DNA from: Gammaproteobacteria bacterium | GTDB taxonomy: Bacteria; Pseudomonadota; Gammaproteobacteria; Steroidobacterales; Woeseiaceae | Assembly: GCA_029863305.1 (NCBI GenBank) | Contig: JAOTVR010000016.1 | Location: 1 to 56,161 of the forward strand | Direction: 5' to 3' | Length of the DNA: 56,161 bases | Shown: positions 14,414 through 33,200 of the stretch, piece after piece | How positions within the stretch are numbered: the first letter of the stretch is position 1 | Layout of the letters: each line of letters starts with the position of its first letter | Position numbers and translations under genes: made by a program | The notes under the pieces: model-generated | Told to the model about the DNA's origin: nothing | The model's database searches: none | What the model saw: only the letters and a program-made list of their open reading frames with translations

Positions 14414-14941
14414 ATGTCGATTCTTATCCGCACATTGCTGCTGGCGCTCGTCTGGGGGGTTACGACCACGAGCAGTGCTCAGGAAATTTCGGCCGAAGAT
14501 ATGCGAAGCCTGGACGGGCAAGTCCAGGAAATTAAGACTGACGTTTTAAGCATCGCATCGGAACTCGACAATCTTGAAGAAAGGTTGCTGTTCCCTTCAA
14601 ACACTCAAGTCGCGGTTTTCGTATCGATGGAGCCGGACGAAACATTTCGACTCGACGCGCTGCAAATCGCGATAAACGGCGAACTGGCCACGCATCACAT
14701 CTATAGCTTCAATGAGCTCGAAGCGCTGCAGAAAGGCGGGGTGCAACGCATTTACACGGGCAACGTGGCCACGGGTGAGCACGAGCTCAGTGTCACCATG
14801 ATGGGCAAGTTGAAGAATGGCAAAGATTACAATCATTCTGACAGTTTCGCATTTGCCAAAGGTGTGAAGCCCAAGGCGCTGGGAATTACGCTGGCCGGTC
14901 CCGGGTTGGGTAAGAGCGGAATTCAAATCGGAGACTGGTAG
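14414..14941 (+). CDS. Periplasmic coiled-coil protein, first gene of TPR/ExbBD operon
   Basis: A 175-residue exported protein. The start ATG at 14414 follows AAAGGA at a normal distance; the in-frame GTG at 14360 would add 18 residues before the signal peptide. Signal peptide about 1-22, a short coiled coil (about 26-58, SLDGQVQEIKTDVLS and following heptads), then a beta-rich domain containing IYTGNVATGEHELSV. The latter resembles the immunoglobulin-like domain of small proteins that accompany TPR/ExbBD clusters. No enzymatic motif is seen. Three bases separate it from the next gene, so it belongs to the nine-gene operon and is probably a periplasmic component. Function is otherwise unknown. 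Confidence 0.75.
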   Translation: MSILIRTLLLALVWGVTTTSSAQEISAEDMRSLDGQVQEIKTDVLSIASELDNLEERLLFPSNTQVAVFVSMEPDETFRLDALQIAINGELATHHIYSFNELEALQKGGVQRIYTGNVATGEHELSVTMMGKLKNGKDYNHSDSFAFAKGVKPKALGITLAGPGLGKSGIQIGDW

Positions 14942-14944
14942 ACC

Positions 14945-16828
14945 ATGCGTCGAGCACCGTTCTCGGTGATCGGGCTCCTGCTGCTCGCCTGTCTGGCAAC
15001 GAGTCCGAGCCATAGCAGCGAGCTGAATGATCTGCATTTCGGCGAGGCGCTCTATTACGCTCATCAGGGGCATTTCTTCGAGGCGCTGGAGCGGCTCGAC
15101 AGTGAAGTCAGGCAGCATTACGAGATTGACGAGCCGGAACTCGACACGCTGTATGCGCACATAAATGACGCCGAATTTTCGCTCGGCGATTTCGAGCTGC
15201 GCTACCGGATGCATCATCGCGCCGGCCGCGCGATCAGGGCGGTACTCGAGGGCGACGTCGACGAAGTCATACGCAATGATGCGGCCTATCGGCTTGGCCG
15301 GATTCATTTTCAGAAGAATCAATTGGCGGATGCAATGCGCGCACTCGAGCGCATCGACGGCAAAGTCCCCGCATCCATTAGCGACGACATCGAATTCCTG
15401 CGGGCGAATATTTACCTGGCCGAGGGTCAGCCGGCAAAATCAATGGACTTGTTCAAGCGGCTGCAGAACACTGATGAATTCGGTGCGTTTGCCGCTTACA
15501 ACCTTGGCATCGCTTATCTGCAGGACGGGCAACGCCAGGCGGCGGTGACTCAACTAGATCGCGCCGGCCAGACTGTCGCCGACGATGCTGCTGAACTCGC
15601 AATCCGGGACAAGTCCAACCTGGTGCTCGGCACGTTATTGGCGGAAGCCGGCGACTACGATCGGGCGGTGCCGTTCCTGAATCGCGTTCGCCTGGATGGG
15701 CCGTTTTCAAATCAGGCGTTGCTCAGTGCCGGCTGGGCCAACATGTCCAGCGAGGATTTCGAACGCGCCGTCGTGCCGTGGAAAATCCTCGCCGAACGCG
15801 AGGTAACCGATAGCGCAACTCAGGAAGCCATGCTGGCGCTGCCGTATGCCTACGGGAAACTTAATGTACATGGCCGTGCGGCGAGCTTCTACGGCCGGGC
15901 GCTGGATTCATTCGGTGTCGAGGTCGACAAACTCAACGCGTCCATCGACAGCATCAGGGAAGGCAAGTTTCTGGCGGCATTGGTTCGCGAGGAGATCCGC
16001 AACGACAAGGATTGGGTTATCCGGCTGCGTGCATTGCCCGAGACACCCGAGACTTATTACCTGATGCAATTGCTCGCCACGCACGATTTTCAGACCGGCC
16101 TGCAAAACTACCTGGACCTCGCCGACATGCGCGGAAAACTTCTTGCCTGGCAGGCCAGTTTCGATGCCTTCGATGACATGGTCGATATCCGCTATGACCA
16201 TTACCAGCCTTTGTTGCCCGGTATCGACCAGGAATTCCGGGAACTCGATTCGAGAATGCGGCTGCGCATCGAGCAGCACGAAATGCTGGTCAAGCGCCGC
16301 GACGCAATGCTGACGATGCCGCAGCCCGAGTTTCTGGCCACCCGCGACGAGCAGGCGCTGCTTGCGCGGCTCGAAAATGTCGAGCGTCTGTTAACGGGAC
16401 AAGAAACACCGGTCGAAGCCTCTTTTCAACAGCGTATCCAGCGACTTAAAGGCACGCTGACATGGACACTCGAAACCGAGTATCACGAGCGGTTGGCAAA
16501 GTTCGACGAGAATCTGCGCACGCTCGATCAGGCCATTGCGATTCTGCAGGAGGAATACACTCAGTATGTCAGGTCGCGCCAGGCCGCCACTCATAGTTAT
16601 ATCGGTTATCAGAAGCCGATCAACAGGCTGCGGGTGCGTGCGCGAGATTCCGTCGAGAAGATCGACCAGCTGATGGCTCGGCAGGGGCACATGCTCGAAC
16701 TCGTGGCGATCGAGAAGCTGGTTGCGCGGCGCGATCGTCTTAAGGATTACCGCGACAAGGCACGCTTCGCGTTGGCCGACAGTTACGACCGTGCTACACA
16801 GGCGCAGGCCAGGACGGGCGAGCAGTGA
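14945..16828 (+). CDS. Exported TPR and coiled-coil protein (627 aa)
   Basis: Signal peptide about 1-24 (LLLLACLATSPSHSS). Residues 30-340 hold degenerate tetratricopeptide-like helical repeats, including LHFGEALYYAHQGHFFEAL, AAYNLGIAYLQDGQ and LVLGTLLAEAGDYDRAV. Residues 400-600 are long charged helices likely to form coiled coil. No catalytic motif is visible. The stop overlaps the next start (TGATG), so the two TPR proteins are translationally coupled. It is best read as a periplasmic scaffold linking the inner-membrane ExbBD motor to outer-membrane parts, which is inference from the operon rather than sequence identity. Confidence 0.82.
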   Translation: MRRAPFSVIGLLLLACLATSPSHSSELNDLHFGEALYYAHQGHFFEALERLDSEVRQHYEIDEPELDTLYAHINDAEFSLGDFELRYRMHHRAGRAIRAVLEGDVDEVIRNDAAYRLGRIHFQKNQLADAMRALERIDGKVPASISDDIEFLRANIYLAEGQPAKSMDLFKRLQNTDEFGAFAAYNLGIAYLQDGQRQAAVTQLDRAGQTVADDAAELAIRDKSNLVLGTLLAEAGDYDRAVPFLNRVRLDGPFSNQALLSAGWANMSSEDFERAVVPWKILAEREVTDSATQEAMLALPYAYGKLNVHGRAASFYGRALDSFGVEVDKLNASIDSIREGKFLAALVREEIRNDKDWVIRLRALPETPETYYLMQLLATHDFQTGLQNYLDLADMRGKLLAWQASFDAFDDMVDIRYDHYQPLLPGIDQEFRELDSRMRLRIEQHEMLVKRRDAMLTMPQPEFLATRDEQALLARLENVERLLTGQETPVEASFQQRIQRLKGTLTWTLETEYHERLAKFDENLRTLDQAIAILQEEYTQYVRSRQAATHSYIGYQKPINRLRVRARDSVEKIDQLMARQGHMLELVAIEKLVARRDRLKDYRDKARFALADSYDRATQAQARTGEQ

Positions 16829-19800
16829 TGTTACGGCATGCAGTCATTCTCTCGCTGGCAAGCATTGGCCTCGGCGCATGTTCGACAATCAGCGATCAGG
16901 GCACGCTCGCTGAGCTTGCGCGTGTAGAGGCGGACACCGACGAGGTGTATCTCGAGGACAGCCTGCAGCGGGCCGCGCAGAGTTACCGAAACTATCTGGA
17001 AGAGACGTCGGATGGCGCACGGACGCCCGAAGCGATGCGCCGACTCGCTGACTTGCAGATCGAGCAGGAATACGGCGTCATCGGCGGCGCTCAGCTTGTC
17101 GAATTGCCGGCTCCGGATGCGGCTGCAGCGCCGGCAGGAAAAAATGTGGCTGAAGCCCAGCCAAAGGATGCGTCGGAGCCAGCAGAATCCGAGCAGCAAT
17201 TCGAACAACGTGCGTTAAGGCGCCAGGAGTTTTTATCCGGGCCAACGCAATTTGATATACGCTCGCCCGGAGCGGCGACTGCAGCGTTGCCCTCTGGTCC
17301 GCGCGATGCCATTGAGACCTACCGCGAGATTCTCGCAACCTATCCGTATTACGAGCGCAACGATCAGGTGCTCTACCAAATGTCGCGCGCGTACGACGAA
17401 ATCGGCCAGCCGGACCAGGCGATGCTGGTTATGGATCGACTGGTGGCCGAATATCCATATTCCAAATACCTGGATGAAGTGCACTTCCGACGCGGCGAAT
17501 ATTTCTTCGTCCGGAAAAAATATGGTGAAGCTGAAAACGCTTACAGTCCCATTATCACGATGGGGCCGAGTTCGTCCTATTACGAACTCGCCTTGTACAA
17601 ACTCGGATGGGCGCTTTACAAGCGGGAGTTCTACGATGACGCATTGCGTAACTTCATCGCCATGCTCGATTATCGATTGTCGATTGGTTACGACTTCGAC
17701 CAGGCTCATGACGAAGATGACGAACACCGGGTCGGGGATACGTTCCGGGTTATCAGCCTTAGCTTCTCAAATCTGGGCGGCCCAGACGTCGTCGACGAGT
17801 ACTTCGCGGGAAGCGAGCGCCGTAGTTATGCCGACAAGATTTACGGCAATCTGGGTGAGTTCTATTTCTCCAAGCTCCGCTACGACGACGCCGCGTCGGT
17901 ATACAAGTCGTTCACGAAGCAGAACCCGTTTCATAAAGTATCACCCCACTTCAGTATGCGCATCGTCGAGATATACGTTGACGCCGGGTTCCCGCAACTG
18001 GTCGTGGAGTCGAAGAAGGAGTTCGCGACCACTTATGCGCTAACTGCCGAATACTGGGCACACTTCGATCTCGAGGCATCGCCCGAGGTTGTCGGTTATC
18101 TCAAGACCAATTTGACGGACCTCGCCAATCACTACCACGCGCTATACCAGGACGAGAACCTGGTCGAAGAGCGTCCCGCCAGCTTTGCGGAAGCACAGCA
18201 CTGGTATCGTCAAATCCTGTCTTCCTTCCCGACGGATGAAGAGTCGCCGCAGATGAATTACCAGCTCGCCGACCTATTGCTGGAAAACGAGCACTTCGGT
18301 GAGGCAGCCAGAGAATACGAGCGCACCGCCTACGACTATGCGGAACACGAACAGGCCTCGGCAGCCGGTTACGCGGCGGTCTACGCTCACCGCGAAGATC
18401 TTAAGCTCGCGACCGCCGCTCGCGCGCTCGAAGTGAAGACCGCGACGATCGCCAGTTCGCTGCGGTTCGCCGATACGTTCCAGCAGCACGAGCAAGCGCC
18501 CGTTGTGCTCGGCGCAGCCGCGGATGATCTTTACGAACTGAAGGACTTTGCTGCGGCGATCGAGTCGGCGCAGAAACTGATCGATCGGTATCCGTTGGCG
18601 GATACTTCATTGCAGCGGTCGGCATGGGCCGTCATCGCACACTCATCGATCGACCTGGCCGACTATCAGAATGCCGAGCGTGCTTACGCGAACGTGCTCG
18701 AGCTCACGCCCGTCGATGACGAATCGAGACCGGCTGTTGTCGATGGCCTGGCGGCGGCGATCTACAAGCAGGGCGAGCAGGCCGGCCTCCTCGAAGACCA
18801 CCGAGCCGCGGCGGATCACTTCCTGAGAATCAAGGAGCTCGCGCCGACTTCCGATATACGCAGCGTGGCCGAATATGATGCCGCCGCCGCACTCATGAAG
18901 TTGCAGGACTGGTCTCTGGCGTCGGGTGTGCTCGAGGATTTTCGCAGCGACCATCCGGAGCACGAGTTACAGGCCGATGCGACCAAGCAACTGGCATTTA
19001 TTTACCGTGAAGACGGACAGGTCGAACGCTCGGCCGCCGAGCATGAAAGAATCGCCGCCGAATCGACAGATCCGGGATTGAGCCGGGAGGCCCTGCTGAC
19101 AGCGGCAGAACTTTATGACGAGGTCAACATCATCGAGGATGCGGTGCGCGTTTACCAACAATATGTCACCGAATATCCGCAACCGCTCGACATCGCGATG
19201 GAAACGCGATCGCGCCTTGCCGACATATTCAAGGCCGAACTCGATGATGAAAACTATTATGCCGCTTTGAACGATATTGTTGCGGCTGACCGCAACGCCG
19301 GAGAAGCGCGTACGGACCGTAGTCGATACCTCGCAGCCGGCGCTTCGCTGGTACTGGCAGAACAAACTTATCAGCGGTTTGCGGAGTTGCGGCTGGCGCA
19401 GCCGTTCGAGGAGAGCCTGGCCGAAAAGCAGCGGCGAATGGATGTGGCGATGGGGGCCTTTGAAAGCCTCGTAAATTATGAAGTCGCGGACGTGACGGCC
19501 GCGGCAACTTATCACATGGCTGAGATCTCCCGCGAATTCGGCGCCGCGCTTCTCGATTCGGAACGTCCTGCGGGCCTTAGCGACGCGGAGAAAGCCGACT
19601 ATGAACTGATCCTCGAGGAGGAGGCGTTTCCGTTCGAAGAGCAGGCTATCGCGGTACACGAACAGAATTTCGAATTGCTGACCGCCGGCATTTACAACCC
19701 GTGGGTCCAGAAGAGTCTCGACAAGCTGGCGGGGCTCATGCCGGGACGCTATGCAAAGAACGAAATCAGCGGCGGCTTCGTCGGATCAATCGACAGTTAC

Positions 19801-19962
19801 GCGTACCGTATGCCGGTTGCAGCAAAAATTGCTGTCGACGAAACGGGTGACGTCGCGCCTGCGGAAGCCGACGAAACAGAGTTGCCGGAATCCGCAGACG
19901 AGGCCAATTCGCCGCAAGCGCCTGCACAGATATCACGCGCTGTGGCCGGCGATCTGAGGTAG
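16828..19962 (+). CDS. Large TPR lipoprotein (1044 aa)
   Basis: The signal peptide ends in lipobox LGAC (Cys18), giving a lipoprotein. A Pro/Ala/Glu-rich segment (about 85-130) is followed by many tetratricopeptide-like repeats to about residue 950, e.g. QVLYQMSRAYDEIGQPDQAM, FRRGEYFFVRKKYGEAENAY and LGWALYKREFYDDAL. This organisation resembles outer-membrane TPR lipoproteins of myxobacterial gliding clusters (AglT-like). The C-terminus is Ala/Glu/Pro-rich. I start at ATG 16828, which overlaps the upstream stop; a GTG at 16825 would add only one Met. Probably an outer-membrane anchored partner of the ExbBD/TonB-like module. Confidence 0.83.
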   Translation: MLRHAVILSLASIGLGACSTISDQGTLAELARVEADTDEVYLEDSLQRAAQSYRNYLEETSDGARTPEAMRRLADLQIEQEYGVIGGAQLVELPAPDAAAAPAGKNVAEAQPKDASEPAESEQQFEQRALRRQEFLSGPTQFDIRSPGAATAALPSGPRDAIETYREILATYPYYERNDQVLYQMSRAYDEIGQPDQAMLVMDRLVAEYPYSKYLDEVHFRRGEYFFVRKKYGEAENAYSPIITMGPSSSYYELALYKLGWALYKREFYDDALRNFIAMLDYRLSIGYDFDQAHDEDDEHRVGDTFRVISLSFSNLGGPDVVDEYFAGSERRSYADKIYGNLGEFYFSKLRYDDAASVYKSFTKQNPFHKVSPHFSMRIVEIYVDAGFPQLVVESKKEFATTYALTAEYWAHFDLEASPEVVGYLKTNLTDLANHYHALYQDENLVEERPASFAEAQHWYRQILSSFPTDEESPQMNYQLADLLLENEHFGEAAREYERTAYDYAEHEQASAAGYAAVYAHREDLKLATAARALEVKTATIASSLRFADTFQQHEQAPVVLGAAADDLYELKDFAAAIESAQKLIDRYPLADTSLQRSAWAVIAHSSIDLADYQNAERAYANVLELTPVDDESRPAVVDGLAAAIYKQGEQAGLLEDHRAAADHFLRIKELAPTSDIRSVAEYDAAAALMKLQDWSLASGVLEDFRSDHPEHELQADATKQLAFIYREDGQVERSAAEHERIAAESTDPGLSREALLTAAELYDEVNIIEDAVRVYQQYVTEYPQPLDIAMETRSRLADIFKAELDDENYYAALNDIVAADRNAGEARTDRSRYLAAGASLVLAEQTYQRFAELRLAQPFEESLAEKQRRMDVAMGAFESLVNYEVADVTAAATYHMAEISREFGAALLDSERPAGLSDAEKADYELILEEEAFPFEEQAIAVHEQNFELLTAGIYNPWVQKSLDKLAGLMPGRYAKNEISGGFVGSIDSYAYRMPVAAKIAVDETGDVAPAEADETELPESADEANSPQAPAQISRAVAGDLR

Positions 19963-19980
19963 AGGTTGAATGGAGCTATC

Positions 19981-20622
19981 ATGAGCACGCAAAATTCGCT
20001 ACCGAAATGCATTATCGCCCGGGCCGGCGGGTTTTTTATCGCGCTGGCTGCTGTGCTGTCAGGTTGCGCGACGACTCAGTCGACAAGCACCCCGGCACAC
20101 ATCGAGATCCAGGAAAAAGTCGGATTCACGATTACCGAAGAGGTGCGGATTAGCAGCGGTGTAAGAACAGACTACGACACGGCCCTGGACTATCTCGAGC
20201 AGGGGCGTCACGAGGAAGGCATTGCGTTGCTCGAAGCGGTTGCAGATGGGGCACCGCAGTTAAGCGCGCCACGTATAGATCTCGGCATAGCCTACCATCG
20301 CGCCGGCGATCTCGAAGCCGCGGAAACCAATCTGCTGATGGCGCTCGAATCGAATCCTGATCACCCCATCGCACACAATGAGCTCGGCATTGTCTACCGC
20401 AAGTCGGGGCGAATTACCGAAGCGCGACAGAGTTACGAGGCCGCCCTGGAGATATATCCCGGCTATCACTATGCGCGGCGAAATCTGGCCGTTCTCTGCG
20501 ATTTATATCTCGCGGATCTGAGCTGTGCGCTGGAAAACTATGAAGCGTATATGGCGACGGTGACGAGCGACGACGAGGCTGCCATGTGGATAACCGATAT
20601 TCGTACGCGACTCGGTCAATAG
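19981..20622 (+). CDS. TPR lipoprotein (213 aa)
   Basis: Lipobox LSGC (Cys29) after an N-terminal basic/hydrophobic signal. Residues 60-190 hold three to four TPR units (LDYLEQGRHEEGIALLEAV, IDLGIAYHRAGDLEAAETN, NELGIVYRKSGRITEARQSY). The ATG at 19981 is preceded by GGAG and is preferred to a TTG 15 bases upstream. It is the third TPR protein in a row in this operon and resembles the small TPR proteins of TonB2-type clusters. Confidence 0.83.
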   Translation: MSTQNSLPKCIIARAGGFFIALAAVLSGCATTQSTSTPAHIEIQEKVGFTITEEVRISSGVRTDYDTALDYLEQGRHEEGIALLEAVADGAPQLSAPRIDLGIAYHRAGDLEAAETNLLMALESNPDHPIAHNELGIVYRKSGRITEARQSYEAALEIYPGYHYARRNLAVLCDLYLADLSCALENYEAYMATVTSDDEAAMWITDIRTRLGQ

Positions 20623-20630
20623 GAGGACTC

Positions 20631-20954
20631 ATGCTGAGGTTACTTTTGATTAGCGCGGCTCTGTTACTGGCCAGTCCATTTGCTCTGTCTGATGAGTCGG
20701 AAGCCGAGGCGACGGAAGATGTGCAGGAAACCGAAGTGAGCGGAGACGGTATCGAGCGGCCGAAGACGATGTCCGGAATGTCGATTCTGGGCAACGAGGA
20801 AGCGCCGAAATCACTCGTCATCATTCCATGGAAATCTTCGGAGCTCGGAGAGACGGTCAGCCTCTCCGATACGCTCGACGATCGAGCGCGTCCGGTCGAC
20901 CGGGAAGTATTCCTGCGCGAGTTGAGGTTCTATGAAATTCGATCCGCTGAGTAA
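20631..20954 (+). CDS. Small exported acidic protein in ExbBD operon
   Basis: A 107-residue protein. ATG 20631 follows a very strong ribosome site (AGGAGG at 20622-20627), so this start is chosen over one 45 bases upstream inside the previous gene. Signal peptide about 1-19 (LLLISAALLLASPFALS), an acidic linker rich in Glu, then a short basic-to-mixed tail containing SLVIIPWKSSELGE and ending FLRELRFYEIRS. The IIPWK...FxRELxFY pattern looks conserved-protein-like, but I cannot name a family. Small accessory component by context. Confidence 0.7.
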   Translation: MLRLLLISAALLLASPFALSDESEAEATEDVQETEVSGDGIERPKTMSGMSILGNEEAPKSLVIIPWKSSELGETVSLSDTLDDRARPVDREVFLRELRFYEIRSAE

Positions 20955-21164
20955 TCTCCAAAGCGACTCCGCGACGATGAGTGACTCGTCATGGCAGCGC
21001 TGAAAATGGAGTCTTATTGGTGACGCAGGTAACAAACCAACATGAAGTATCGAGAGAATTAGCGTCTGAACGTGCGGTACATCACATTCAAGACATTGAC
21101 GTACAACTATTCTTGGTTCTGCCCTTGGATGGGTTAGGGCATTCTGTCAAATGAGGATCTGGTA

Positions 21165-21815
21165 ATGGACTTCTTCTTTTCGATCATAGGCTTCTTCGCG
21201 TCGGGCGGCATGTTCATGTTTCCGATACTGGTGGTATTCGCTGTCGGGTTTGCAATTTCAGTCGAGCGCTTTGTCACGCTCGCAACGGTGACAAATAAGA
21301 ACCAGGTGGTATGGGATAAAGTACAGCCACTGCTCGCCAACGGTGATTTCGATGGCGCACGTGAAATGACCAGCGACGACGAGTCAACGATCTCGCAGGT
21401 CTTGAACATGGGGCTGTCGCTGCAGGGTGCGGTCCGGCGTCGCGAGGACATAGAGATTGCGATGGAGGAAAGCATGATGGAGATCGTGCCGCGCCTCGAA
21501 AAGCGAACACCGTATGTCGCGCTGGCTTCGAGTATCGCCACGCTACTCGGCCTGCTCGGTACGATTATGGGTCTGATCCAGGCATTTACCGCGGTTGCAA
21601 ACGCCAATCCGGCGGAAAAGGCGGACCTGTTGTCCGCGAGTATTTCGGTTGCGATGAACACGACGGCGTTCGGCCTCATGGTGGCAATACCGCTGCTCAT
21701 CATCCACGCAATATTGACAAGCAAGACCGGCGATATTGTCGACAGCCTGGAAATGGCTACGGTTAAAGCCCTGAACGTATTCTCTAAACGGGCAAAATTC
21801 GCGATCGAGGCCTAG
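21165..21815 (+). CDS. MotA/TolQ/ExbB-family proton channel protein
   Basis: A 216-residue inner-membrane protein with three membrane helices: about 15-33, 118-140 and 158-182. The family signature is clear in TLLGLLGTIMGLIQAF and in TTAFGLMVAIP. It forms the pentameric ring around the ExbD dimer and converts proton motive force into mechanical work. In the third helix, where ExbB/TolQ normally carry Glu (xxEALxxTAxGL), this protein has Val162 (ISVAMNTTAFGL). The gene follows a 210-base gap after the TPR genes, so it may have its own promoter. It has GAGG at 21153-21156 and leads the ExbD-ExbD-TonB-like set. Confidence 0.93.
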   Translation: MDFFFSIIGFFASGGMFMFPILVVFAVGFAISVERFVTLATVTNKNQVVWDKVQPLLANGDFDGAREMTSDDESTISQVLNMGLSLQGAVRRREDIEIAMEESMMEIVPRLEKRTPYVALASSIATLLGLLGTIMGLIQAFTAVANANPAEKADLLSASISVAMNTTAFGLMVAIPLLIIHAILTSKTGDIVDSLEMATVKALNVFSKRAKFAIEA

Positions 21816-21820
21816 CCGCG

Positions 21821-22312
21821 ATGGCACGGCGGCACCACTACAAGCGTCGAACTAAAGACGCGCACGAACTCGACGTCACCACCTTCTTGAACCTGATGGT
21901 GGTGCTGGTGCCGTTTTTGCTGATAACGGCCGTGTTCTCGAGATTGACGATCGTGGAACTGAACCTGCCGAGTTCGTCAGGCGCGGGGTCCAACATCGAC
22001 AACAGCTTTCGTGTTGAGGTCATCGTCCGGGAGACAGGCATCGATATCACCAATGGCACGGCGATTATTGGATCTATTCCCAAAAAAGACGACGACTTCG
22101 ATCTCGACACGCTGTCGGATTTCATGGTTTCCCTGAAGCGGCAGTATCCCGAGCATGATGCTGCGTCCGTGCTAATGGAGGCACATATTCCCTACGACTA
22201 CCTGATCCGGGTCATGGATATCGTCAGAAGCGTCGAGGTTACCGGGGAAGACGAGAGTGTCGTGGAATTGCTCGCGCTGTTCACGGAAATTTCCGTCGGA
22301 GATGCACCATGA
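21821..22312 (+). CDS. ExbD/TolR-family protein 1, Asp-to-Asn in membrane helix
   Basis: A 163-residue protein with a basic N-terminus, one membrane helix (about 21-41) and a periplasmic domain. In ExbD and TolR the helix begins NxTPLID, and the final Asp (Asp25 of ExbD) carries protons. Here the matching segment reads DVTTFLNLMVVL, with Asn24 at that place (codon AAC at 21890-21892). It is the first of two tandem ExbD genes and overlaps the next by four bases (ATGA). Either this subunit is a structural partner in a heterodimer with the second ExbD, or this position is dispensable in this subfamily. Confidence 0.88.
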   Translation: MARRHHYKRRTKDAHELDVTTFLNLMVVLVPFLLITAVFSRLTIVELNLPSSSGAGSNIDNSFRVEVIVRETGIDITNGTAIIGSIPKKDDDFDLDTLSDFMVSLKRQYPEHDAASVLMEAHIPYDYLIRVMDIVRSVEVTGEDESVVELLALFTEISVGDAP

Positions 22313-22812
22313 GGAATTCGCGCAGAATCAAGCGCATGTCGCGAAACCGCGGCAAGATCTCGAAGATGAATCTGACGTCGCTCATGGACGTGTTCACCAT
22401 CCTCGTGTTCTTCCTGCTCGTGAATTCCGGGTCCGTCGAAGTGTTGGACGCGCCCAAGAACGTCAAACTGCCGGAATCGAGGGTCGAGGCCAAGCCGCGC
22501 GAAACGGTCGTAATTTTCGTGAGCAGCGAGGAAGTGCTCGTGCAGGGTAAGCCGGTGGCGCTGGTCGCCGACATACTCAACGGAGATTCGACAGCGCTCG
22601 ATCCGATAACGTCGCGGCTTGCGGAATTGAAAGAGAGCATCGTCGGACCCAATACGCTGGCCGTAGCGGGCAGCCGGGAAGTCACGATTCTGGCCGACAA
22701 GTCCGTTCCGTTCACGGTGATAAAGACGATCATGTCGACCTGCACCGACGGCGGTTATGAAAATGTATCCCTCGCCGTAATCCAGAAGGCAGCGCAGGTC
22801 GCGGGGATCTAA
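22309..22812 (+). CDS. ExbD/TolR-family protein 2, proton-site Asp retained
   Basis: A 167-residue protein with a very basic N-terminus, one membrane helix (about 22-41) and a periplasmic region. The helix start is MNLTSLMDVFTILVFF, which keeps the essential Asp (Asp27). The periplasmic part, with a conserved VTILADKSVPF motif, is typical of ExbD/TolR, where the equivalent DKxVPY segment interacts with the energy-transducing partner. Coupled by ATGA to the preceding ExbD. Confidence 0.92.
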   Translation: MRNSRRIKRMSRNRGKISKMNLTSLMDVFTILVFFLLVNSGSVEVLDAPKNVKLPESRVEAKPRETVVIFVSSEEVLVQGKPVALVADILNGDSTALDPITSRLAELKESIVGPNTLAVAGSREVTILADKSVPFTVIKTIMSTCTDGGYENVSLAVIQKAAQVAGI

Positions 22813-22818
22813 CAGGTC

Positions 22819-24234
22819 ATGGGCGACAGTCACACAGTGAATTCGAAATTGACTGAAAAAGAGCAGTCGATTCAGGAAGATTTCGCGAAGTCGGAGCACG
22901 AACTCGACGGGTTGAAAGGCGATCTGCAAGCCATCGATACCGAACTCGGTGAGCTCGCGCAACGCAACCACCAATACGAGCTTCTGTCGACAGTCTGCCG
23001 TTCACTCGATGAACTCGAGAATCTCGGCGCATCCCGGTTATTCTGGGGTGATCACAGCGGCTCTGAGCATTCAGCCGAACACATACAAAACGCACGGCGC
23101 ATGCTCGCTGAATTCAATGCGGAAGTTGCTGGCGTCGAGGATCGTCGTCAGGCGGTTCTTGCCAAGATCGGCGATCAGAACAATGTTCTGGAAGACCTGC
23201 ACTACGATTTACGCGACGCGCGGGCGCAGGCGGAAAGCCGCTGGCAGGAGTGGCTCGTCGAGCGCGAAGTGGTCACGCTGCCGCGCCGGGCGCAAGTCAT
23301 GCCATGGGCCAGGGGCACCGAGGAAGATGCTCGTTTTCGTCGATCGCTGGCTGCATCGTTGCTGGTGTCGATGACGGTGGGTTTGCTGGTCAGTATCTTC
23401 GATATACCGATCCTGGAAAGATCTGCGGAAATCGAACTTCCGGAGCGGGTTGCCAAACTCGTGCGCGACGAGAGGCGGCTGCCACCACCGCCCGAAACGG
23501 TCGAAGAGCCGATTATTCCCGAGGAAGAAATCCCGGAACCGGAGCTCGCCGACGTGCAGACGCCTGACGAGTTGCCCGATATAACAGAGGAACCGGTCGT
23601 CGCCGAGGTCGAGCAGCCCGAGACGCGGGAGCAGGTTAAATCAAAAGGCATTCTCGCGTTTCGCGAAAGTTTCGCGAGCCGCGCGAACATGAGGCCGGCC
23701 GCGCAACTCGGATCACGGGCCACATTCACGACCGCCGGCGCAAATGCCGTCGGCCGGCCGGAGCGCTCAATGGTGACGACATCGGCACCCGGTTCGAGCG
23801 GCGGGATCAATCTCGGCGACATCAGTCGGAACGTTGGCGGTGGCGGGCAGGCTATCGAAGGCGGCGGGGTGATGCAGGTTGCAAGTTCAATTGGCGGTGG
23901 CGAGGGTGCCGGCAGGCCGCTCAGCGGCGGGCGGTCAGCGGGACGCACCGACGAAGAAATACAAATTGTGTTTGATCGCTATAAAGCGGCGCTGTACCGG
24001 CTATACAACCGTGAATTACGCAAGAACCCGACATTGCGGGGGCAATTGGTATTGCAACTCACCATCGAGCCGGATGGTTCCGTGTCTCTTTGCCAGCTGG
24101 AGTCTTCCAACATGGGTGCTCCCACACTCGCACAACAGGTCGTCGATCGCGTCCGCGCATTCGACTTCGGTGCAAAGGAAGACATCGTTGCGATGACCAT
24201 CATCTATCCGATTGACTTTTTGCCTGCGGTGTAA
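22819..24234 (+). CDS. TonB-like energy transducer with AgmX/PglI C-terminal domain
   Basis: A 471-residue inner-membrane protein. Residues 1-150 form a cytoplasmic, highly charged coiled-coil region and residues 176-196 a membrane helix. Then comes a Pro/Glu-rich periplasmic spacer (about 220-275, containing LPPPPETVEEPIIPEEE), a Gly-rich segment (about 310-380), and a C-terminal domain (about 385-471) reading YNRELRKNPTLRGQLVLQ, IEPDGSV. That last pattern is the AgmX/PglI domain of myxobacterial adventurous-motility proteins and is TonB-like in role. Canonical TonB lacks the long cytoplasmic coiled coil. Last gene of the operon, with six bases after the ExbD stop. Confidence 0.88.
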   Translation: MGDSHTVNSKLTEKEQSIQEDFAKSEHELDGLKGDLQAIDTELGELAQRNHQYELLSTVCRSLDELENLGASRLFWGDHSGSEHSAEHIQNARRMLAEFNAEVAGVEDRRQAVLAKIGDQNNVLEDLHYDLRDARAQAESRWQEWLVEREVVTLPRRAQVMPWARGTEEDARFRRSLAASLLVSMTVGLLVSIFDIPILERSAEIELPERVAKLVRDERRLPPPPETVEEPIIPEEEIPEPELADVQTPDELPDITEEPVVAEVEQPETREQVKSKGILAFRESFASRANMRPAAQLGSRATFTTAGANAVGRPERSMVTTSAPGSSGGINLGDISRNVGGGGQAIEGGGVMQVASSIGGGEGAGRPLSGGRSAGRTDEEIQIVFDRYKAALYRLYNRELRKNPTLRGQLVLQLTIEPDGSVSLCQLESSNMGAPTLAQQVVDRVRAFDFGAKEDIVAMTIIYPIDFLPAV

Positions 24235-24980: not shown

Positions 24981-25070
24981 CGTTAGACAAAAGGCAAAGC
25001 TGCCGAAAGGTGGCGACGCAAAGTCACCGGCCTAACGAGCAATATGGCTCCATGGCAGCGGGACCGCTCG
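24981..25070 (+). promoter_or_regulatory. GEMM-I (cyclic di-GMP type) riboswitch
   Basis: The GEMM core is clear in order: AAAGGCAAAGC, a stem closed by the GAAA tetraloop (tgccGAAAggtg), then the near-invariant GACGCAAAG, CCGGCCTAA and a 3' stem beginning ATGGCAGCGGGACCG. It lies 69 bases upstream of the start of the 1709-aa DUF11 gene on the same strand. No U-rich terminator follows, and the start codon has no obvious Shine-Dalgarno, so control may be translational. GEMM-I aptamers bind cyclic di-GMP; a subset binds cyclic GMP-AMP, and I cannot tell these apart by eye. Confidence 0.9.
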
Positions 25071-25138
25071 ACTTTATCAGTCCATTCGGGCCATCCGCGC
25101 TATTGAGCCAGACCACACACGGATAGTTAGCGACTGAC

Positions 25139-28100
25139 ATGGCTCAACTCCAATTTGCTGCGCGAGCGTTTGGCAACAAACGCTCGATTATCCGACTCGT
25201 CACTCTAGCGCTGTTGCTGTTGGTAGCCGTCTCGGCGCAGGCGCAGGATTGTTCCGATTACCCTGGTGGCTTGCTCGACGGTTTCGCGGGCACCCTTGCC
25301 CCGTCGCAGCTGCAGGTGGACCAGAACTGTGCGGTCAGGAATTATCCGGCGTCCAATCCGATGGGCACCAACTTCAGCTTCTTCACGCAGCCGGGGCAAA
25401 ATCCCGATAGATGGCTCATTATCTTTGACAATGTCGTGCACACGGGGCAGATGTCGTGTAACGCCGTCCTCGAGCACAAGATCTGGTTTACAAATGGCTC
25501 TTCAACCACGATTCAGGACGGCTGTCAGAATCTGTTAATACCCGTCGAGAAAATCGATAAACAGAACCCGGCCGGCCAGAACACGGCCGCCATCGGTGTG
25601 CCGTTTACCTACCGGCTAACCTTGCCCGTGTTATTCGACCCCGGCACGGGTGCGGTGATTAACACGAGCGGGTCGGTCAATCAATTACACGGCGTCACGC
25701 TCTGGGACGATCTCAACGCGACCGGTGCGGATCTCAGTTATCTGAGCCACACGGCATACTGGGAGGACACCGGCGCACAAGTGGCGCATACCTTCTCGAA
25801 CATCGGGGATAACCTGACGTTCGACAACTTCCCGATCATCCCGGCCGGACGGCAAATCATCCTCGAGATCACGGTCGTACTCGACGACACGCCGGCGAAC
25901 GCGCCGGGAACGCAGTTCATCAACACTGCCACTTGGGACTTTGGAAGAATCGTCGACGGCGAGTTTTTCGAGCCGTTGCCGGGCGAGAATGGCATCACGC
26001 AGCCGATGACGATCGTCAGGCCCGACCTGGTGCTGACCAAGACGGGTCCGGCGACACTGAACCTCGGTGAATCCGGTGATTTCACCCTCGACGTACAGAA
26101 CATCGGTAACACCGATGCCTGGAATGCAACGATCCTCGATCGGCTCCCCGACGGCGTCACGGGTGGCATGTGCGACTTCACGCCGACCGTGACAAGCGCC
26201 CGGGTTTTCGCGTCGGATGGTGTCACGCCGGTACCTGGCAAGGGCGCGCTGACTCCGGGCAGCGACTTTACGCTGAATTACAACGCGGCGCCCACCTGCG
26301 AGCTCACCCTGACCATGCTCAGCGCCGCGGCCGCGATCGGCCCGAACGAGCGCCTGATCATCACGTACCAGACCGAACTCGACAGCGATAGCCAGAACAA
26401 TCTAGCGCTGACCAATATCGCGGGTACTACCCAGTGGTTCGATGCCGACATCAATACGCCGCGGCAAACTTACACGCGTTCGCTCACGGATGGCACCGTC
26501 GGCACGCTCGACCACGAGGATGCCCACACTGTCGCGACGGCGCTAACCGGATATTTCTTTGAGAAAAGCGTCGAGAATCTCACCACCGGTGTAAGCCCGG
26601 CGCCGACGGCCACGCCGGGCGACACACTGCGCTATACGTTGCGCCTGCGGACGACCGATACGCCGGTTAACAATGTCACCTTTTATGACGAACTCGATGA
26701 GCTGAACAGCTCACCGGTATTCGTGCCGGGATCGCTGGTGCTGGTTGCCGGCACCATCCCGGCCGGTGCCGACACCAGCGGTACCGACCCGACCGGCGGC
26801 GCGAACGGCACCGGCGTGGTCGAGATCGGGAACCTCAGTGTCCCTGCCGACAGTGAGGTTCTGGTCCAGTTCGATATCACGCTGGCACCGGTTCTGGCCA
26901 ACGGACTCGTCGTCACGAACCAGGCAGACCTGATCGGCAATACGAAGCTCGCCGACAGTGACGACCCGAATATCAACGGCCTGTCCAACCCGAATATCGA
27001 CGGTGACGAAGATCCAACACAGATCACGATCACGTCCACGCCGGCGTTTACGGTCGAGAAAATCTCGACCTACATGACGGGTGATCCCAACGTATTGCTG
27101 GCCGGCGAAACGCTGCGGTACACGATCACGGTCCAGAACATCGGTACGGACAACGCGACCGGCGTCAGTATCTTCGACCAGGTACCGGCCAACACGACAT
27201 ATGTGGCGGGCAGCACGACATTGAATGGCGGTGGGCTCGCCGACAATGCTCAGGGCAATACGCCGCTCGCCGACGGCATACAGGTCAATGCGCCTCAGGA
27301 CAGCACGCCTGGTGTGATGAACGCGGGCGTCGCCAACAATGTTGCGACCATTGCATTTGACGTCGTCGTCGATCCGGCAACGCCGGACGGCACCATTCTT
27401 TCGAATCAGGCATTCCTGAGTGCGTTAAGCCACGGCATTGCCGATCAGCCGTCCGACGATCCGAGCACCGAGATTCCCGATGACCCGACGCGGGACATTG
27501 TCGGCAATTTACCGTTTCTGTTTGCACCCAAGTCCGCAGCCCTGCAGGTCGATGCCGGTTCACCCGGTATCGTCGATCCGGGCGATGTGCTTCGCTACAC
27601 GATTACGATTTACAACAACGGTTCAAGAGACGCGACGACCGTCGAATTGTTCGATAACGTGCCGGCCGACACGACCTATGTCGCCGATACGCTGACGCTG
27701 AATGGCCAGCCTGTGGGCCAGCCGGACGGCGGCGTATTCCCGCTGACCGCGCGGCTTCCGGTCAGCTCCGCCGATTTGACGCCACCGTTGCCGGGCGCAG
27801 GTGCAGGTGTGTTGACGGCGGGCGAGTCTGCGGTCGTGCAGTTTGATTTGCTGGTCGACAACGGGGTTCCGACCGGCACCCTGATCACTAACCAGGCGAC
27901 TGTATACAGCGAAGAACTTCCAAATCTCTTGACCGACGGTGACGGCAATCCGGCGACCGGACCCGAACCGACGGTCGTCGTCGTCGGCGATGTGCAGCAG
28001 CTCTCGATCGTCAAGACGGTGGCCGTGGTTGGCGGTGGCGCCGCCATCGCGGGCGCAACGCTCGAGTACACCGTGACGGTGCAAAACGTCGGCGCCGTGC

Positions 28101-30268
28101 CGGCGCAATACGTCGTCATAACCGACGATCTCGCGGTACCGAATCCCGGCTACCTGAACTATGTCGCCCAGTCGGCCACGATGAACGGGCTGACGAACGG
28201 CATTACGTTCGTCGGGTCGCTGCTGACCGCCGATTACTCGACGGACTATGGTCCGCTGCAACCGGGTGAAACCATTGTCCTGCGTTTCCAGGCAGTCATC
28301 GAACCGAACCTGGCCGCCGGCACGCCGATCACGAACGTGGCGCGAGCCACGTGGAATGATCCGCCGCAATGGTCCGAAGCCCGGATCACAATCCAGGTTG
28401 GCGCGGTGCCGGGCCTCGGTATACTCACTGGCACCGCCTGGCACGATGCGGATTTCGACAACACGCTGGACTCCGGAGAACGTTTACTGGAAGGCTGGAC
28501 CGTAACGCTGTTGCGCGACGGTGATCCGATTCGCACGGCGCCGACCGATGCCAACGGCGTCTTCGCCATGGCCGCGGTGCCGCCCAATTATCTCAGCGGC
28601 CAGGAATATTCCCTGGTATTCAGCGCGCCGGGGGCGGGCGGGCGAACCGCTTTGCTCGGCCAGGCCGACTCGGCATTCACCGACGGCCTGCAGCGCATCG
28701 ATGAAATAGTCGTTCAGGCGGGCGGCATTGTCGAAGATCTGAATCTGCCGATCGATCCGGACGGCGTAATTTACGACTCTATCGCGCGGTCGCCGATCTC
28801 AAACGCCGTCGTCTCGCTCGTCGACGCGCGCAGTGGCGCGCCCGTGCCAAATCTTTGTTTCGACGATCGAGACCAACAGGACCAGGTCACGCTGGCTGAC
28901 GGTTATTACAAGTTCGACATCAATTTCTCGGACCCGGCGTGTCCGAGCGGTGCAAATTACGCGATCCGCGTGGTGCCGCCCGACGCCAGTTACATGGCCG
29001 GCGCTTCCGAATTTATTCCGCCGACATCGGATGAGTCGACACCGCCTTTCAACGTACCGTCATGTCCGGGTTCTGTGAACGATGTGATCCCTGCAACCAA
29101 TCAGTATTGCGAGGTCCAGGTATCAGAGTTCGCACCGGCACCATCGGTCGCTGCACAAAGTGCGGGGACGACGTATCACACGCATCTGACGCTCGATAAC
29201 AGTCAGCTGCCCGGATCAGGTCAGCTTTTCAACAATCACATACCCGTCGATCCGCGCCTCGGCGGTGCCGTATCGGTGACGAAGACGACGCCGATGTTGA
29301 ATGTGTCCCGTGGTCAGATGGTGCCGTATGTCATTACGGTGTCGAATTCCTTTGGCGTCGACCTGCAGGATGTCAGCATCGTCGATCGTTTCCCGCCCGG
29401 GTTCCGTTATGTCGAAGGCTCCGCACGCCTGGACGACGTCAAGACTGAGCCTGTGATTAACGGCCGCGAACTGGCCTGGCCGGGTCTCGCGCTGGCCGTC
29501 GACGGAGGCCGCGAAATCAAGTTGTTGCTGGCCGTCGGCGCCGGCGTCACGGAAGGCGAATTCACGAACCGGGCGCAGGCCGTCAGCTCATTAACGGGCA
29601 CCGCGCTGTCCGCGGAAGCGACCGCAACTGTGCGCCTGGTGCCCGATCCGACGTTTGACTGTACGGATGTGACCGGCAAGGTGTTTAACGACGCCAATCG
29701 GGACGGATATCAGGATCAGGGCGAGGAAGGTTTATCCGGTGTCCGGCTCATAACCGCCCGCGGCCTGGCTGCAACGACGGACACGTACGGTCGCTATCAC
29801 ATTACCTGCGCGATAACACCCAACGAAAGTCGCGGCAGCAATTTTGTGCTGAAGCTCGATGACCGCACGCTGCCGACCGGCTATCGGGGTTCGACCCGGC
29901 CTGTTCAGGTGCAGCGCGCCACGCGCGGTAAAGCGCTAAAAATTAACTTCGGTGCATCGATCCATCGTGTCGTCGCCATAGATATCGCCGATGCCGCATT
30001 CGAACCGGGCACCGTGGAAATGCGTCGTCTCTGGCGACCGCGTATCGAACTCCTGCTAACCGAGCTGAAGAAATCGCCTGCACTGCTGCGACTGTCCTAC
30101 GTCGCCGATATAGAGGACGAATCACTCGTCGAGCATCGCCTGGACAAGCTCAAGGGTGACATCATGCGGTCCTGGCGGGAGCAGGACTGCTGCTACGAAC
30201 TCGTCATCGAGCCGGAAATTTTCTGGCGGCGCGGTGGACCGCCGGACAGAAGCGGGGGTGCGCAGTGA
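25139..30268 (+). CDS. Giant DUF11-repeat surface protein (1709 aa)
   Basis: Exported protein with signal peptide about 1-36 (ALLLLVAVSAQAQ). It contains about six DUF11-type beta-sandwich modules, recognised by repeats such as LVLTKTGPATLNLGESGDF, TVEKISTY, LRYTITVQNIGTDNATGV, FDQVPANTTYV and VSVTKTTPMLNVSRGQMVP. Two SdrD/carboxypeptidase-like modules are also present (GTAWHDADFDNTLDSGE near 1100; GKVFNDANRDGYQDQGEEG near 1520). The last 120 residues are a different, helical, charged domain. No LPxTG or autotransporter end is seen. The next gene, an OmpA/beta-barrel protein, overlaps its stop, so it may be the exporter or anchor. Expression is placed under the GEMM riboswitch. Adhesin or matrix role is inference. 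Confidence 0.87.
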   Translation: MAQLQFAARAFGNKRSIIRLVTLALLLLVAVSAQAQDCSDYPGGLLDGFAGTLAPSQLQVDQNCAVRNYPASNPMGTNFSFFTQPGQNPDRWLIIFDNVVHTGQMSCNAVLEHKIWFTNGSSTTIQDGCQNLLIPVEKIDKQNPAGQNTAAIGVPFTYRLTLPVLFDPGTGAVINTSGSVNQLHGVTLWDDLNATGADLSYLSHTAYWEDTGAQVAHTFSNIGDNLTFDNFPIIPAGRQIILEITVVLDDTPANAPGTQFINTATWDFGRIVDGEFFEPLPGENGITQPMTIVRPDLVLTKTGPATLNLGESGDFTLDVQNIGNTDAWNATILDRLPDGVTGGMCDFTPTVTSARVFASDGVTPVPGKGALTPGSDFTLNYNAAPTCELTLTMLSAAAAIGPNERLIITYQTELDSDSQNNLALTNIAGTTQWFDADINTPRQTYTRSLTDGTVGTLDHEDAHTVATALTGYFFEKSVENLTTGVSPAPTATPGDTLRYTLRLRTTDTPVNNVTFYDELDELNSSPVFVPGSLVLVAGTIPAGADTSGTDPTGGANGTGVVEIGNLSVPADSEVLVQFDITLAPVLANGLVVTNQADLIGNTKLADSDDPNINGLSNPNIDGDEDPTQITITSTPAFTVEKISTYMTGDPNVLLAGETLRYTITVQNIGTDNATGVSIFDQVPANTTYVAGSTTLNGGGLADNAQGNTPLADGIQVNAPQDSTPGVMNAGVANNVATIAFDVVVDPATPDGTILSNQAFLSALSHGIADQPSDDPSTEIPDDPTRDIVGNLPFLFAPKSAALQVDAGSPGIVDPGDVLRYTITIYNNGSRDATTVELFDNVPADTTYVADTLTLNGQPVGQPDGGVFPLTARLPVSSADLTPPLPGAGAGVLTAGESAVVQFDLLVDNGVPTGTLITNQATVYSEELPNLLTDGDGNPATGPEPTVVVVGDVQQLSIVKTVAVVGGGAAIAGATLEYTVTVQNVGAVPAQYVVITDDLAVPNPGYLNYVAQSATMNGLTNGITFVGSLLTADYSTDYGPLQPGETIVLRFQAVIEPNLAAGTPITNVARATWNDPPQWSEARITIQVGAVPGLGILTGTAWHDADFDNTLDSGERLLEGWTVTLLRDGDPIRTAPTDANGVFAMAAVPPNYLSGQEYSLVFSAPGAGGRTALLGQADSAFTDGLQRIDEIVVQAGGIVEDLNLPIDPDGVIYDSIARSPISNAVVSLVDARSGAPVPNLCFDDRDQQDQVTLADGYYKFDINFSDPACPSGANYAIRVVPPDASYMAGASEFIPPTSDESTPPFNVPSCPGSVNDVIPATNQYCEVQVSEFAPAPSVAAQSAGTTYHTHLTLDNSQLPGSGQLFNNHIPVDPRLGGAVSVTKTTPMLNVSRGQMVPYVITVSNSFGVDLQDVSIVDRFPPGFRYVEGSARLDDVKTEPVINGRELAWPGLALAVDGGREIKLLLAVGAGVTEGEFTNRAQAVSSLTGTALSAEATATVRLVPDPTFDCTDVTGKVFNDANRDGYQDQGEEGLSGVRLITARGLAATTDTYGRYHITCAITPNESRGSNFVLKLDDRTLPTGYRGSTRPVQVQRATRGKALKINFGASIHRVVAIDIADAAFEPGTVEMRRLWRPRIELLLTELKKSPALLRLSYVADIEDESLVEHRLDKLKGDIMRSWREQDCCYELVIEPEIFWRRGGPPDRSGGAQ

Positions 30269-33200
30269 TGGCCCGCATGGCGAAGTGGCGATTGCTGCTG
30301 CCGTCTGGCGCAGTACTGTTATCGTTGACAGTGCATGCGCAAGGCGTCGATGAGACGGCAATGGGTAACGCCGTGGAACGGCACCTGCCGGATGACGTGA
30401 CGTTCACGCAATGGGTGCAGGATCCCGAGCGCATGGCCAGCGAGGAAGGTGACCGCATCGATCAGCGCGAGATCGTCGCGAACGATCTGGAGACCGTCAA
30501 ACTCAGCAACCTCGTGCCGCCGATTCACTTCGAGTCCGGCGTCGCCGAGATTCCGGATGAAACGGTGGAGTCGCTGGCCGAAATACTCGAGCGTATGCGC
30601 GATCGCATCAACGTGCGACTGAACTTGATCGGTCATGCGGACAATCAGCCGCTCTCGGACCGGCTCGAAAAGATTTATGGTGATAACGAGGGCTTGTCGC
30701 GCGAACGCGCCGGTCAGGTTGCGGAACATTTTCAAACCGCGCTCGCACTTCCGCCCGAAGCGATTTCCTACGAATGGGCCGGCGACACGCAGCCGATCGC
30801 GTCCAACCTTAACCAGGCAGGCCGCGCGCTGAACCGCCGCGTCGAAATCGAAGTCTGGTACGACGAGGTCGCTGAACGCGTGGCGCTCGAAGAATTCCTC
30901 GTGCCGCACGAAATAAAGCGGGTCAAAGTCTGTCGCATGGAAACTGTCTGCAAGCTGCGTTATGTCGACGGGTATGCAAAACGCGCTCGTGTGCAAAACC
31001 TGATCGCGCCACTTCGTTTCGGGGCAGAAACGATCGAGGTGCCTGGGTCGTTTATCGATCAGGTTCGACAGGGATTCGAAAATCTGCGTGATAAACAGAA
31101 TGTCGTCGTCAAATTTACAGGTTATACGGATGAAACACCGCTTACGGGACGCAACGCGCGGATCTACAGCAACCACGTCGGACTGTCAAAGGCGCGCGCG
31201 CGTCGCGTCGCACTCGCCGTGCAGGAAAATCTGAACCTGGCTTCCGTATCCGTCATCAGTGGCGGGGCCGGTGCGGCGAAGCCGCTGGCTTCCAACCAGA
31301 CCGCACAGGGACGTGCGCTGAATCGGCGCGTCGAGGTCGAGTTCTGGTATGACGATCCGTTGCAGGAATTACCGGACGAGCCGCAGCTCTGTCCCGAATC
31401 CAGCGACGCCGAAATGGTGACCAAGATCTACGACCCACCGTGGGGCACGATCGAGAACATCGAATTCGTTGACGGGAAACCGGTCGTGCCGCAAGGCTAT
31501 ACCGATAAGCTTAAACGCGCGCTGGCCGATATTGCCGACAAGACGAACCCGCGGCTGCGTTTCGCCGGCTATACGAGGAACGAACGCCTGTCACGCAGGA
31601 CTGCCGCTGTTTACGGTGATGACATCGGTTTTTCGGCCTCCCGCGCGCGGCGCGCGATGGAGTCGATTGAGGCTGATATGCAGCTCGATTCGGCACAGCG
31701 CGAATACGAAGGACGCGGTTACGTGCATTCGAAAGACGTCGTCAACGCAGGCTTTACACTGGGTGAAACCTCGCACGTTGCGATTGAAGTCGTCTACGAC
31801 GAGCTGGCCGTACTCGACGATTATGAGGGCGTTGATATCACGCGTCTGACTCGCGAGATTACACCACAGAATCCGCTGGGGCTTAATCTTATGCGTATCA
31901 CCATAGACGGCGTACCCATCGACGATCCGCAACGCAGTTCATCCGACATTCAGCGCTGTACCGACGTTGCCATGCAGACCGCGGACATCCAGTTCGGCTT
32001 CGACAATCTGCGCGCAGCACCAAGGCTCAGTGGCAGCGTCAGCCCGCAACGAGTCGCGGTCTCGCGCATGATTGACCATGAAACGCTGGTCGCTCCGGTA
32101 CAATTCCGGATGTATACGAACTATGCGCATTTCATCGACCGTGCCGAGGTTCGGGTCTTCGACAACGGACAATCGCTGGAAGCAGATCCGCTGGCCGTTA
32201 TTGATATCGAATTGAACGGCGTGGCAAGCTGGCAGCCGCCCGCATTCTGGTTTACAGGACCCGTTAACGAACTCGCTTACGTGATTCGCGCCTACAGCGA
32301 CGACGGCAACTTCGACGAAACCCACCCGCAACCGCTGTGGTTCGTTTACGACTCGGTTGAGAAACCGAAGGACACCGACTCGGAGGATGGCTTCGAACCC
32401 GACCCGGCATTACTTGCCTCGTACGGTGAAAACGGACTGAGTCTGCACAATATCGAGCTGAGCAGCGGAACAGTCGGCGTCCGCGGCACCGGTATTCCGG
32501 CGGATAAAGAAGTGTACGTCGCCGGCCGGCCGGTGCCGGTGGACGGAAACGGCAGTTTCATCGCCGAGGAAATTTTGCCGACGGGCGCGCATACCGTCGA
32601 AGTGGCCCTGGTCGATGAGCAGGGCGGCGGCGAACTCTATCTTCGTGATCTCGAACTCGAAACCAACGACTGGTTCTATGTGGGCATGGCGGACCTGACC
32701 TTGTCGAGCGGCGACTCGAGTGACGCGGCCACCCTGCTCGCGGGCGATAATCCAACACAGGACGTCGATTCGAACGCCGATGGCCGGCTCGCGTTCTTCG
32801 TCAATGGCAAGTTCAGCGATGACTGGAAGCTGACGGCCAGCGCTGATACCCGGGAAGGGTCGCTCGACGATATCTTCAGCAACTTCATGGACAAGTCGCC
32901 CGAATCCCTGTTCCGGCGCCTCGATCCCGATTATTACTATCCGACCTTCGGCGACGACAGCACCGTGACCGAAATGGCGCCGACCATGGGCAAGTTCTTC
33001 GTTCGCCTCAGCGACGATGCCAATTACGGGCAGTGGGGTAATTTCAAAGTCGGGTATATGAATAACGAACTCGCGCAGGTCGACCGCGGTCTGTACGGTG
33101 CAAATCTGCATTATCAGTCCGATGCGGCGACCGACTTCGGCGAGCAACGCTTTGCGGTCGATGGATTCGCGGCGGAGCCGGGCACGGTGCCGAGCCGCGA

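Follow-up and report, generated by a model that had tools for sequence, protein, structure and literature searches.

A long-transducer relative of the AglRQS/GltCDEG core complex, with a riboswitch-linked repeat protein and a predicted OmpA-barrel protein, in a Woeseiaceae genome

In those sections of Luciano et al. (2011; PMC3169522) that are drawn on here, gltC, gltD, gltE and gltG together with aglR, aglQ and aglS are described as forming a core complex, clustered and of unknown function, present with one extra gene in Gammaproteobacteria, Geobacter and Fibrobacter, which are non-gliding bacteria; the core was judged insufficient alone for motility, and the gliding machine was considered to have arisen from it. 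A basal transport role was suggested for it two years later (Wartel et al. 2013; PMC3858216, in the part used here). Pertinent to this is a stretch of 56,161 nucleotides, hereafter the window, that makes up contig JAOTVR010000016.1 (positions 1 to 56,161, forward strand) of the Woeseiaceae draft assembly GCA_029863305.1. On sequence grounds a nine-gene operon within it, A to I (14414..24234), is classed with the AglRQS/GltCDEG core complex, of which it is a form with a long transducer, and not with the gliding machines. The conserved unit to which it belongs is longer, with eleven genes, A to K, reaching to 35361, and a predicted riboswitch for cyclic di-GMP (c-di-GMP) at 24983-25071 between I and J.

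The nine frames that a preliminary description of the locus had listed, all on the forward strand, are present with the positions and sizes it gave, and so is its compact layout, with genes overlapping or 3-18 bases apart and a sole larger break of 210 bases before exbB. Its domain calls, tetratricopeptide repeats (TPR), ExbB, two ExbD and a C-terminal AgmX/PglI domain, are borne out by Pfam and NCBIfam scores, and its calls of lipoproteins and exported proteins agree with two features read by eye and not predicted by a program: lipobox-like Cys residues in both C and D, and N termini that resemble signal sequences in A, B and E. Profiles of these proteins were compared with six myxobacterial loci (open reading frames (ORFs) of at least 80 residues, E 0.01). 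B (14945..16828), a 627-residue protein in which Pfam finds TPR, as it does in C and D, is GltC-like (best match E 2.8e-8). C (16828..19962), of 1044 residues, or 1045 if begun at an upstream GTG, is GltD-like (E 1.5e-39). D (19981..20622), a 213-residue protein begun at the ATG at 19981, is GltE-like (E 2.4e-22) and scores 53.8 bits with the GltE model, under its cut-off of 225. The 216-residue ExbB, F (21165..21815; MotA_ExbB 94.5 bits), is an AglR-like channel subunit (E 1.5e-50) and one of nine MotA/ExbB-family matches in this genome of 4.25 Mb and 200 contigs. In one myxobacterial cluster (L229, genome G398; L, G and C numbers are our handles for loci, genomes and contigs) the profiles of B, C, D, F, G, H and I match in the same order, that of I only at E 1.5e-4, and in another (L225, G401) those of B, C, D and I match. 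It is because of these ordered matches that A to I is filed with the core complex. The kinship to Agl/Glt proposed at the outset thus stood; TonB2 systems, named beside it, are not the closest relatives, the published Glt core complex being closer.

Two genes have no such counterparts, A and E having no match at E 0.01 in the six loci. A (14414..14941), the conserved first gene of the unit in relatives, encodes a 175-residue exported protein for which AlphaFold2 (mean predicted local distance difference test score (pLDDT) 83.4) predicts a long helix and then an Ig/transthyretin-like beta domain. E (20631..20954), an exported protein of 107 residues, has a conserved SGMSILGNEEAPKSLVI-PWKSSELG region and matched no Pfam or NCBIfam family.

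The transducer, I (22819..24234; 471 residues; NF033768 59.4 bits, cut-off 40), is TonB-like, with an N-terminal coiled-coil-like part, one transmembrane segment, a Pro-rich linker and the AgmX/PglI C-terminal domain. Its homologues come in two types: the long, to which I belongs, aligns from near the N terminus, and the short begins only at about residue 130-170. In the window's genome the long type occurs twice (contigs C91 and C18) and the short type once (C25). A homologue was found in 32 of 40 related genomes (searched with I at E 1e-8), and in the 20 loci compared for gene order A to I keep the same order in long- and short-type relatives wherever the contig permits. Since the order recurs in this way, under several phylum labels, the arrangement is not due to chance; conservation of gene order had been put forward earlier as a check on the proposal, and a lack of it as a refutation. 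In a quick tree built from both ExbD proteins and the C-terminal part of I, with a hand-picked subset of loci as rows, 49 of the 50 long rows form one clade (support by the Shimodaira-Hasegawa-like approximate likelihood ratio test (SH-aLRT) 98) and all 21 short rows a separate one (SH-aLRT 100). That tree has five myxobacterial rows (L226 was dropped for having too few columns), a midpoint root and long branches. In the four short-type operons compared in this way (L040, L052, L053 and L058) A to I are present, and J and K are not there.

Beyond I the unit continues. J (25139..30268, forward strand) is a protein of 1709 residues with DUF11, isopeptide and SdrD_B repeats and is likely a surface adhesin; K (30265..35361, forward strand), whose frame shares 4 bases with the end of that of J, has 1698 residues, OmpA domains and, at the C terminus, a predicted outer-membrane beta-barrel. 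The nine genes described at first are a real set within a longer one. All named-locus counts below come from the best 80 of 221 named relatives, labelled for the most part Pseudomonadota, followed by Myxococcota (13), Acidobacteriota (3) and Desulfuromonadales (1), among others; 16 of the 80 are labelled Woeseiaceae (sediment-type lineages), and some record labels, Acidimicrobiia for one, may stem from mis-binned drafts. Of the 75 informative loci, 70 have J downstream of I: 61 of the 80 by direct match to the window's J, L125 from a separate comparison (its J start overlaps I) and eight (L072, L074, L086, L102, L132, L133, L137 and L138) by match to other J proteins, with L062, L083, L085, L100 and L116, which have 33-592 bases after I and no J, omitted from the denominator. 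In L111 the direct J match is 5.9 kb off, beyond an ORF of 1,912 residues. Complete J frames run from about 1,350 residues (L117) to 5,022 (L218, G158), most having at least 1,600. K follows J in 33 of the 34 named loci whose contig extends past J; the sole one with sequence and no K is L105, where the J match ends short of the end of J. In a draft genome (L134, 10473-16001) J and K are fused, a match to J being followed within a single open frame by one to the start of K.

The first OmpA domain of K keeps the peptidoglycan-binding Asp and Arg. The predicted barrel of K has 33 strands as counted in a weak model, the best solved fold match of which is the TonB-dependent receptor Fiu, the barrel fold resembling receptors among others. 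A Pfam search of K at E up to 10 gave only OmpA and a sub-cut-off Glucodextran_B, with no plug or receptor barrel domains.

K and the long type of transducer also keep company across a class-wide sample of 276 genomes, searched with K and then with I. Two K candidates and five I candidates were scored per genome, so that lower-ranked copies could escape. Full-length-type K was found in 11 of the 276 and long I in 10, and all 10 long-I genomes hold such a K (hypergeometric P 1.8e-17, a figure that ignores shared ancestry); they span eight family codes. The eleventh K genome, G228, has a K that runs off the contig edge, and only a short-type I. When both are on one contig (twice in G000, and in G187, G055, G312, G158 and G303) I is followed on the same strand by K at a distance of 5-16 kb; the two are on separate contigs in G273, G258, G124 and G113. 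Short-type or partial I alone was found in 55 of the 276.

The c-di-GMP-I aptamer between I and J, also on the forward strand, scores 72.1 bits with RF01051 (cut-off 35), and there is no terminator-like site between it and J. From 15 aptamers, taken from 13 genomes, a model was built that gave 60 matches in the 80 named loci (1.27 Mb): the I-J gap has 54 of them, 5 lie before A and 1 is in L059. The gap thus has an aptamer in 54 of the 79 named loci with at least 300 bases after I, or in 44 of 69 after removal of the ten named loci from the model's own genomes; it is also present in 13 of the 19 long loci of 20 related genomes. Rfam confirms the aptamers in L103, L112, L118, L124, L117 and L122; for the Acidobacteriota loci L125 and L130 it gives none. 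Povalibacter uvarum DSM 26723 (L117) and Peristeroidobacter agariperforans KA5-B (L122) carry the whole unit with aptamers before both of its halves, one per strain being a GGC variant. In L059 (9209-11151) a second riboswitch and then a second J-like frame come after the first J, which suggests tandem riboswitch-controlled adhesins there. L045 (genome G034) has two aptamers near the start of A (2396-2483 and 3047-3133) and one before J (12924-13012). Aptamers stand upstream of short-type operons as well (G038:C9:187791-187876 and G027:C165:3268-3350), so the type that is without J and K can be riboswitch-linked too.

The motor has a lopsided pair of ExbD proteins. In ExbD1, G (21821..22312, forward strand; 163 residues; ExbD 46.9 bits), Asn24 replaces the proton-binding Asp that ExbD2, H (22309..22812, forward strand; 167 residues; ExbD 56.8 bits), retains as Asp27. 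Where solved ExbD has Asp25 in the alignment, ExbD1 has Asn in 75 of 77 rows and ExbD2 has Asp in 81 of 81; an earlier set of 21 rows of both long and short types had Asn in 21 and Asp in 21. The two exceptions, with Asp in ExbD1, are the loci of P. uvarum and P. agariperforans, where identity to the window is 38-57% for ExbB and the ExbDs as against 46-66% for A to E, as if their motor genes F, G and H had been exchanged. The Myxococcota pairs that best match G and H are Asp and Asp in G401 and Asn and Asp in G398, so the split is not unique to this family. How many proton sites does such a motor need? The Asn/Asp pair is a natural experiment on that question.

The reading that we favour, at a probability of roughly one half (about 0.48), is that A to K encode one machine, in which the ExbB-ExbD1-ExbD2 motor, via I, the TPR proteins and K, displays or works J under predicted c-di-GMP control. 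The observations from which it starts are the homology and order of the nine genes, the J-K extension with the riboswitch between, the Asn/Asp split, and the Asp and Arg of K. A predicted proton-driven motor would power the machine, and I and the TPR lipoproteins would carry force from the inner membrane to K, with whose help J would cross the outer membrane. With K presumably tied to the wall the machine would be stationary, and c-di-GMP would set the amount of J and K, switching them either ON or OFF. The constancy of the J-K pair argues for a dedicated client, and the early idea that the riboswitch-controlled neighbours are what the machine handles is backed by synteny, co-occurrence, the J-K fusion and the position of the riboswitch. 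That an ExbB/ExbD/TonB motor can be required for protein exit via a barrel in the outer membrane has a precedent in the Oar- and Ton-dependent secretion of PopC in Myxococcus (PMC6434023, in the part consulted). One may go further and envisage a c-di-GMP-gated, proton-driven export engine, recurring under several phylum labels, that would push single-chain adhesins some 1,600-5,000 residues long through a barrel with about 33 strands, anchored to the wall, by means of a one-proton-site ExbD pair: a secretion and display system in its own right on a gliding-motor core. This bolder version we put forward as a speculation with rather poor odds.

Several things weigh against the favoured reading. 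Support for it is computational throughout and every functional step is inferred. ExbD1 being without the proton-binding Asp, proton drive would depend on ExbD2 alone. The gap aptamer is absent from 25 of the 79 named loci and, in the window's own genome, from the second copy (C18), one of six long loci of the related genomes without it; five of the 75 informative loci have no recognised J after I (L101, L113, L121, L135 and L136), L135 having its K upstream of A instead. In G113 (L167) a long-type I and a K are present outside the long clade, and the I is followed by a cytochrome-like ORF. A further 39 of the 276 genomes have weaker or partial K matches and no long transducer, so K is part of a wider family. 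The structure model of K is weak (mean pLDDT 54, 17 sequences), and an OmpA-like end of J was not supported, which leaves J without a tie to the periplasm.

What else might the unit be? If it were a gliding engine, the motor complex would travel along the cell dragging J as a mobile adhesin, as in AglRQS/Glt. The homology and order common to Glt/Agl clusters, the reported descent of the gliding machine from the core complex (PMC3169522, as above) and the likeness of J to an adhesin all speak for this; we nevertheless think it unlikely, with K retaining its wall-binding residues: a barrel fixed to the wall would not be expected to move along the cell, and we therefore prefer a machine that acts on J through K to one that glides laterally. 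Moreover, the core alone was deemed non-motile by Luciano et al., and among literature titles, the only part searched, none on gliding in Woeseia or Steroidobacter was found. No FHA-bearing GltG came to light: I scores 36 against a cut-off of 650, which none of the 14 locus-carrying genomes reaches anywhere, a weak discriminator given that 0 of 77 Myxococcota pass it too. Of the Group A genes of Luciano et al. (gltA, B, F, H, I, J and K) only GltJ surfaced, at 17.7 against 450, in a scan of the nine genes, the genomes not having been searched for the others. Less probable still is that the nine-gene motor serves some other client, such as a surface polysaccharide, with J and K a separate adhesin and anchor pair merely co-inherited and co-regulated with it. 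The four short-type operons without J and K and the 5 of 75 long-type loci without J would suit this, as would Nfs, the spore-coat assembly version, which carries polymer on the spore surface (PMC3858216, as above); set against it are the finding of full-length-type K together with the long type in 10 of 11 genomes, the direct adjoining of J to I in 70 of the 75 and the single clade of 49 of the 50 long-type rows.

Least probable, and by our estimate very much so, is an ordinary TonB or Tol-Pal type system, importing through K or maintaining the outer membrane, even with Fiu as the best solved fold match of K, since K gives no Pfam family beside OmpA over cut-off. I does end in a TonB-like domain, just under the TIGR01352 (TonB_Cterm) cut-off (25.4 against 27.1) and further under that of PF03544 (18.9 against 24.6), which speaks for such a system. 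Against it, the transmembrane core of I is without His in 16 aligned rows, two rows having a His at the segment edge. The motor genes fall far under the equivalog cut-offs, F scoring 55 against 221 for tolQ and 40.4 against 206.2 for exbB, and the ExbDs 27.1 and 25.5 against 127.3 for tolR and likewise far under the ExbD equivalog; an ordinary TonB/TolQR iron-uptake cluster, the outcome that by the preliminary description would have refuted its proposal, is thus not what the scores show. Also in favour, C exceeds the YbgF cut-off (110.7 against 90.1, with six stretches matched), which is a weak family mark, that being a short TPR model that long TPR proteins can pass; with PRK10803 CpoB it scores 27 against 383. 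If one returns from these to the proposal that the motor displays or works J through K, its attraction is that a client pair and a second-messenger switch make the function of the core complex testable: does the motor work giant adhesins?

The unit has its own neighbours. Upstream of A and divergent from it are a 1088-residue cytochrome with 36 CxxCH motifs (9869-13135) and a thioredoxin-like gene (13138-13710), and a thioredoxin-like gene is also found just upstream of the short-type operons L052, L053 and L058. Further off, at 7155-9293, an ORF of 712 residues joins a protein-kinase domain to a Calx-beta domain. Downstream, a sulfatase gene (35375-36895) begins 13 bases after K on the same strand. 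A palindromic stretch resembling a miniature inverted-repeat transposable element (MITE) lies within the I-J gap. The 16 bases of its arm motif are met with at two places in the genome, 24371-24612 and 41863-42047, both in the window, with four sites in all (at most 1 mismatch).

Where, then, does the unit stand among described systems? In type IX or SprA-type systems a large barrel and a proton motor handle giant adhesins, and the SprA barrel has 36 strands, a range similar to that of the 33 counted in the predicted model of K; no type IX family passes its cut-off here, the PorW/SprE model giving 40.6 against 250 in C. Compared with the Oar system, K is not a TonB-dependent receptor by Pfam, and J is a giant repeat protein. 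Fibrobacter succinogenes FSU_2397-2403 share TPR proteins, ExbB, ExbD, ExbD and a TonB-family protein with the unit; they are more abundant on cellulose, cellodextrin import being proposed by the authors (PMC6851124, in the part seen), and may, by way of Luciano et al., be another core-complex member. Agl-Glt and Agl-Nfs of Myxococcus likewise have a three-part proton motor, a GltG-type transducer and TPR proteins (PMC3169522 and PMC3858216, as above), whereas here the partners at the outer membrane differ and ExbD1 is without the Asp that is essential in AglQ (D28; PMC3858216). In the portions of the literature examined, no link of the core complex to DUF11 or OmpA proteins or to riboswitches is mentioned. 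It is to that core, the Group B of Luciano et al., that the unit is closest, the set TPR, TPR, TPR, ExbB, ExbD, ExbD and TonB-like protein being in one cluster in both, and A and E fit the extra gene that has no Myxococcales homologue; as Group B is described in the sections used, only here are there a long coiled-coil-like N terminus to the transducer, a second extra gene, E, and J, K and the riboswitch.

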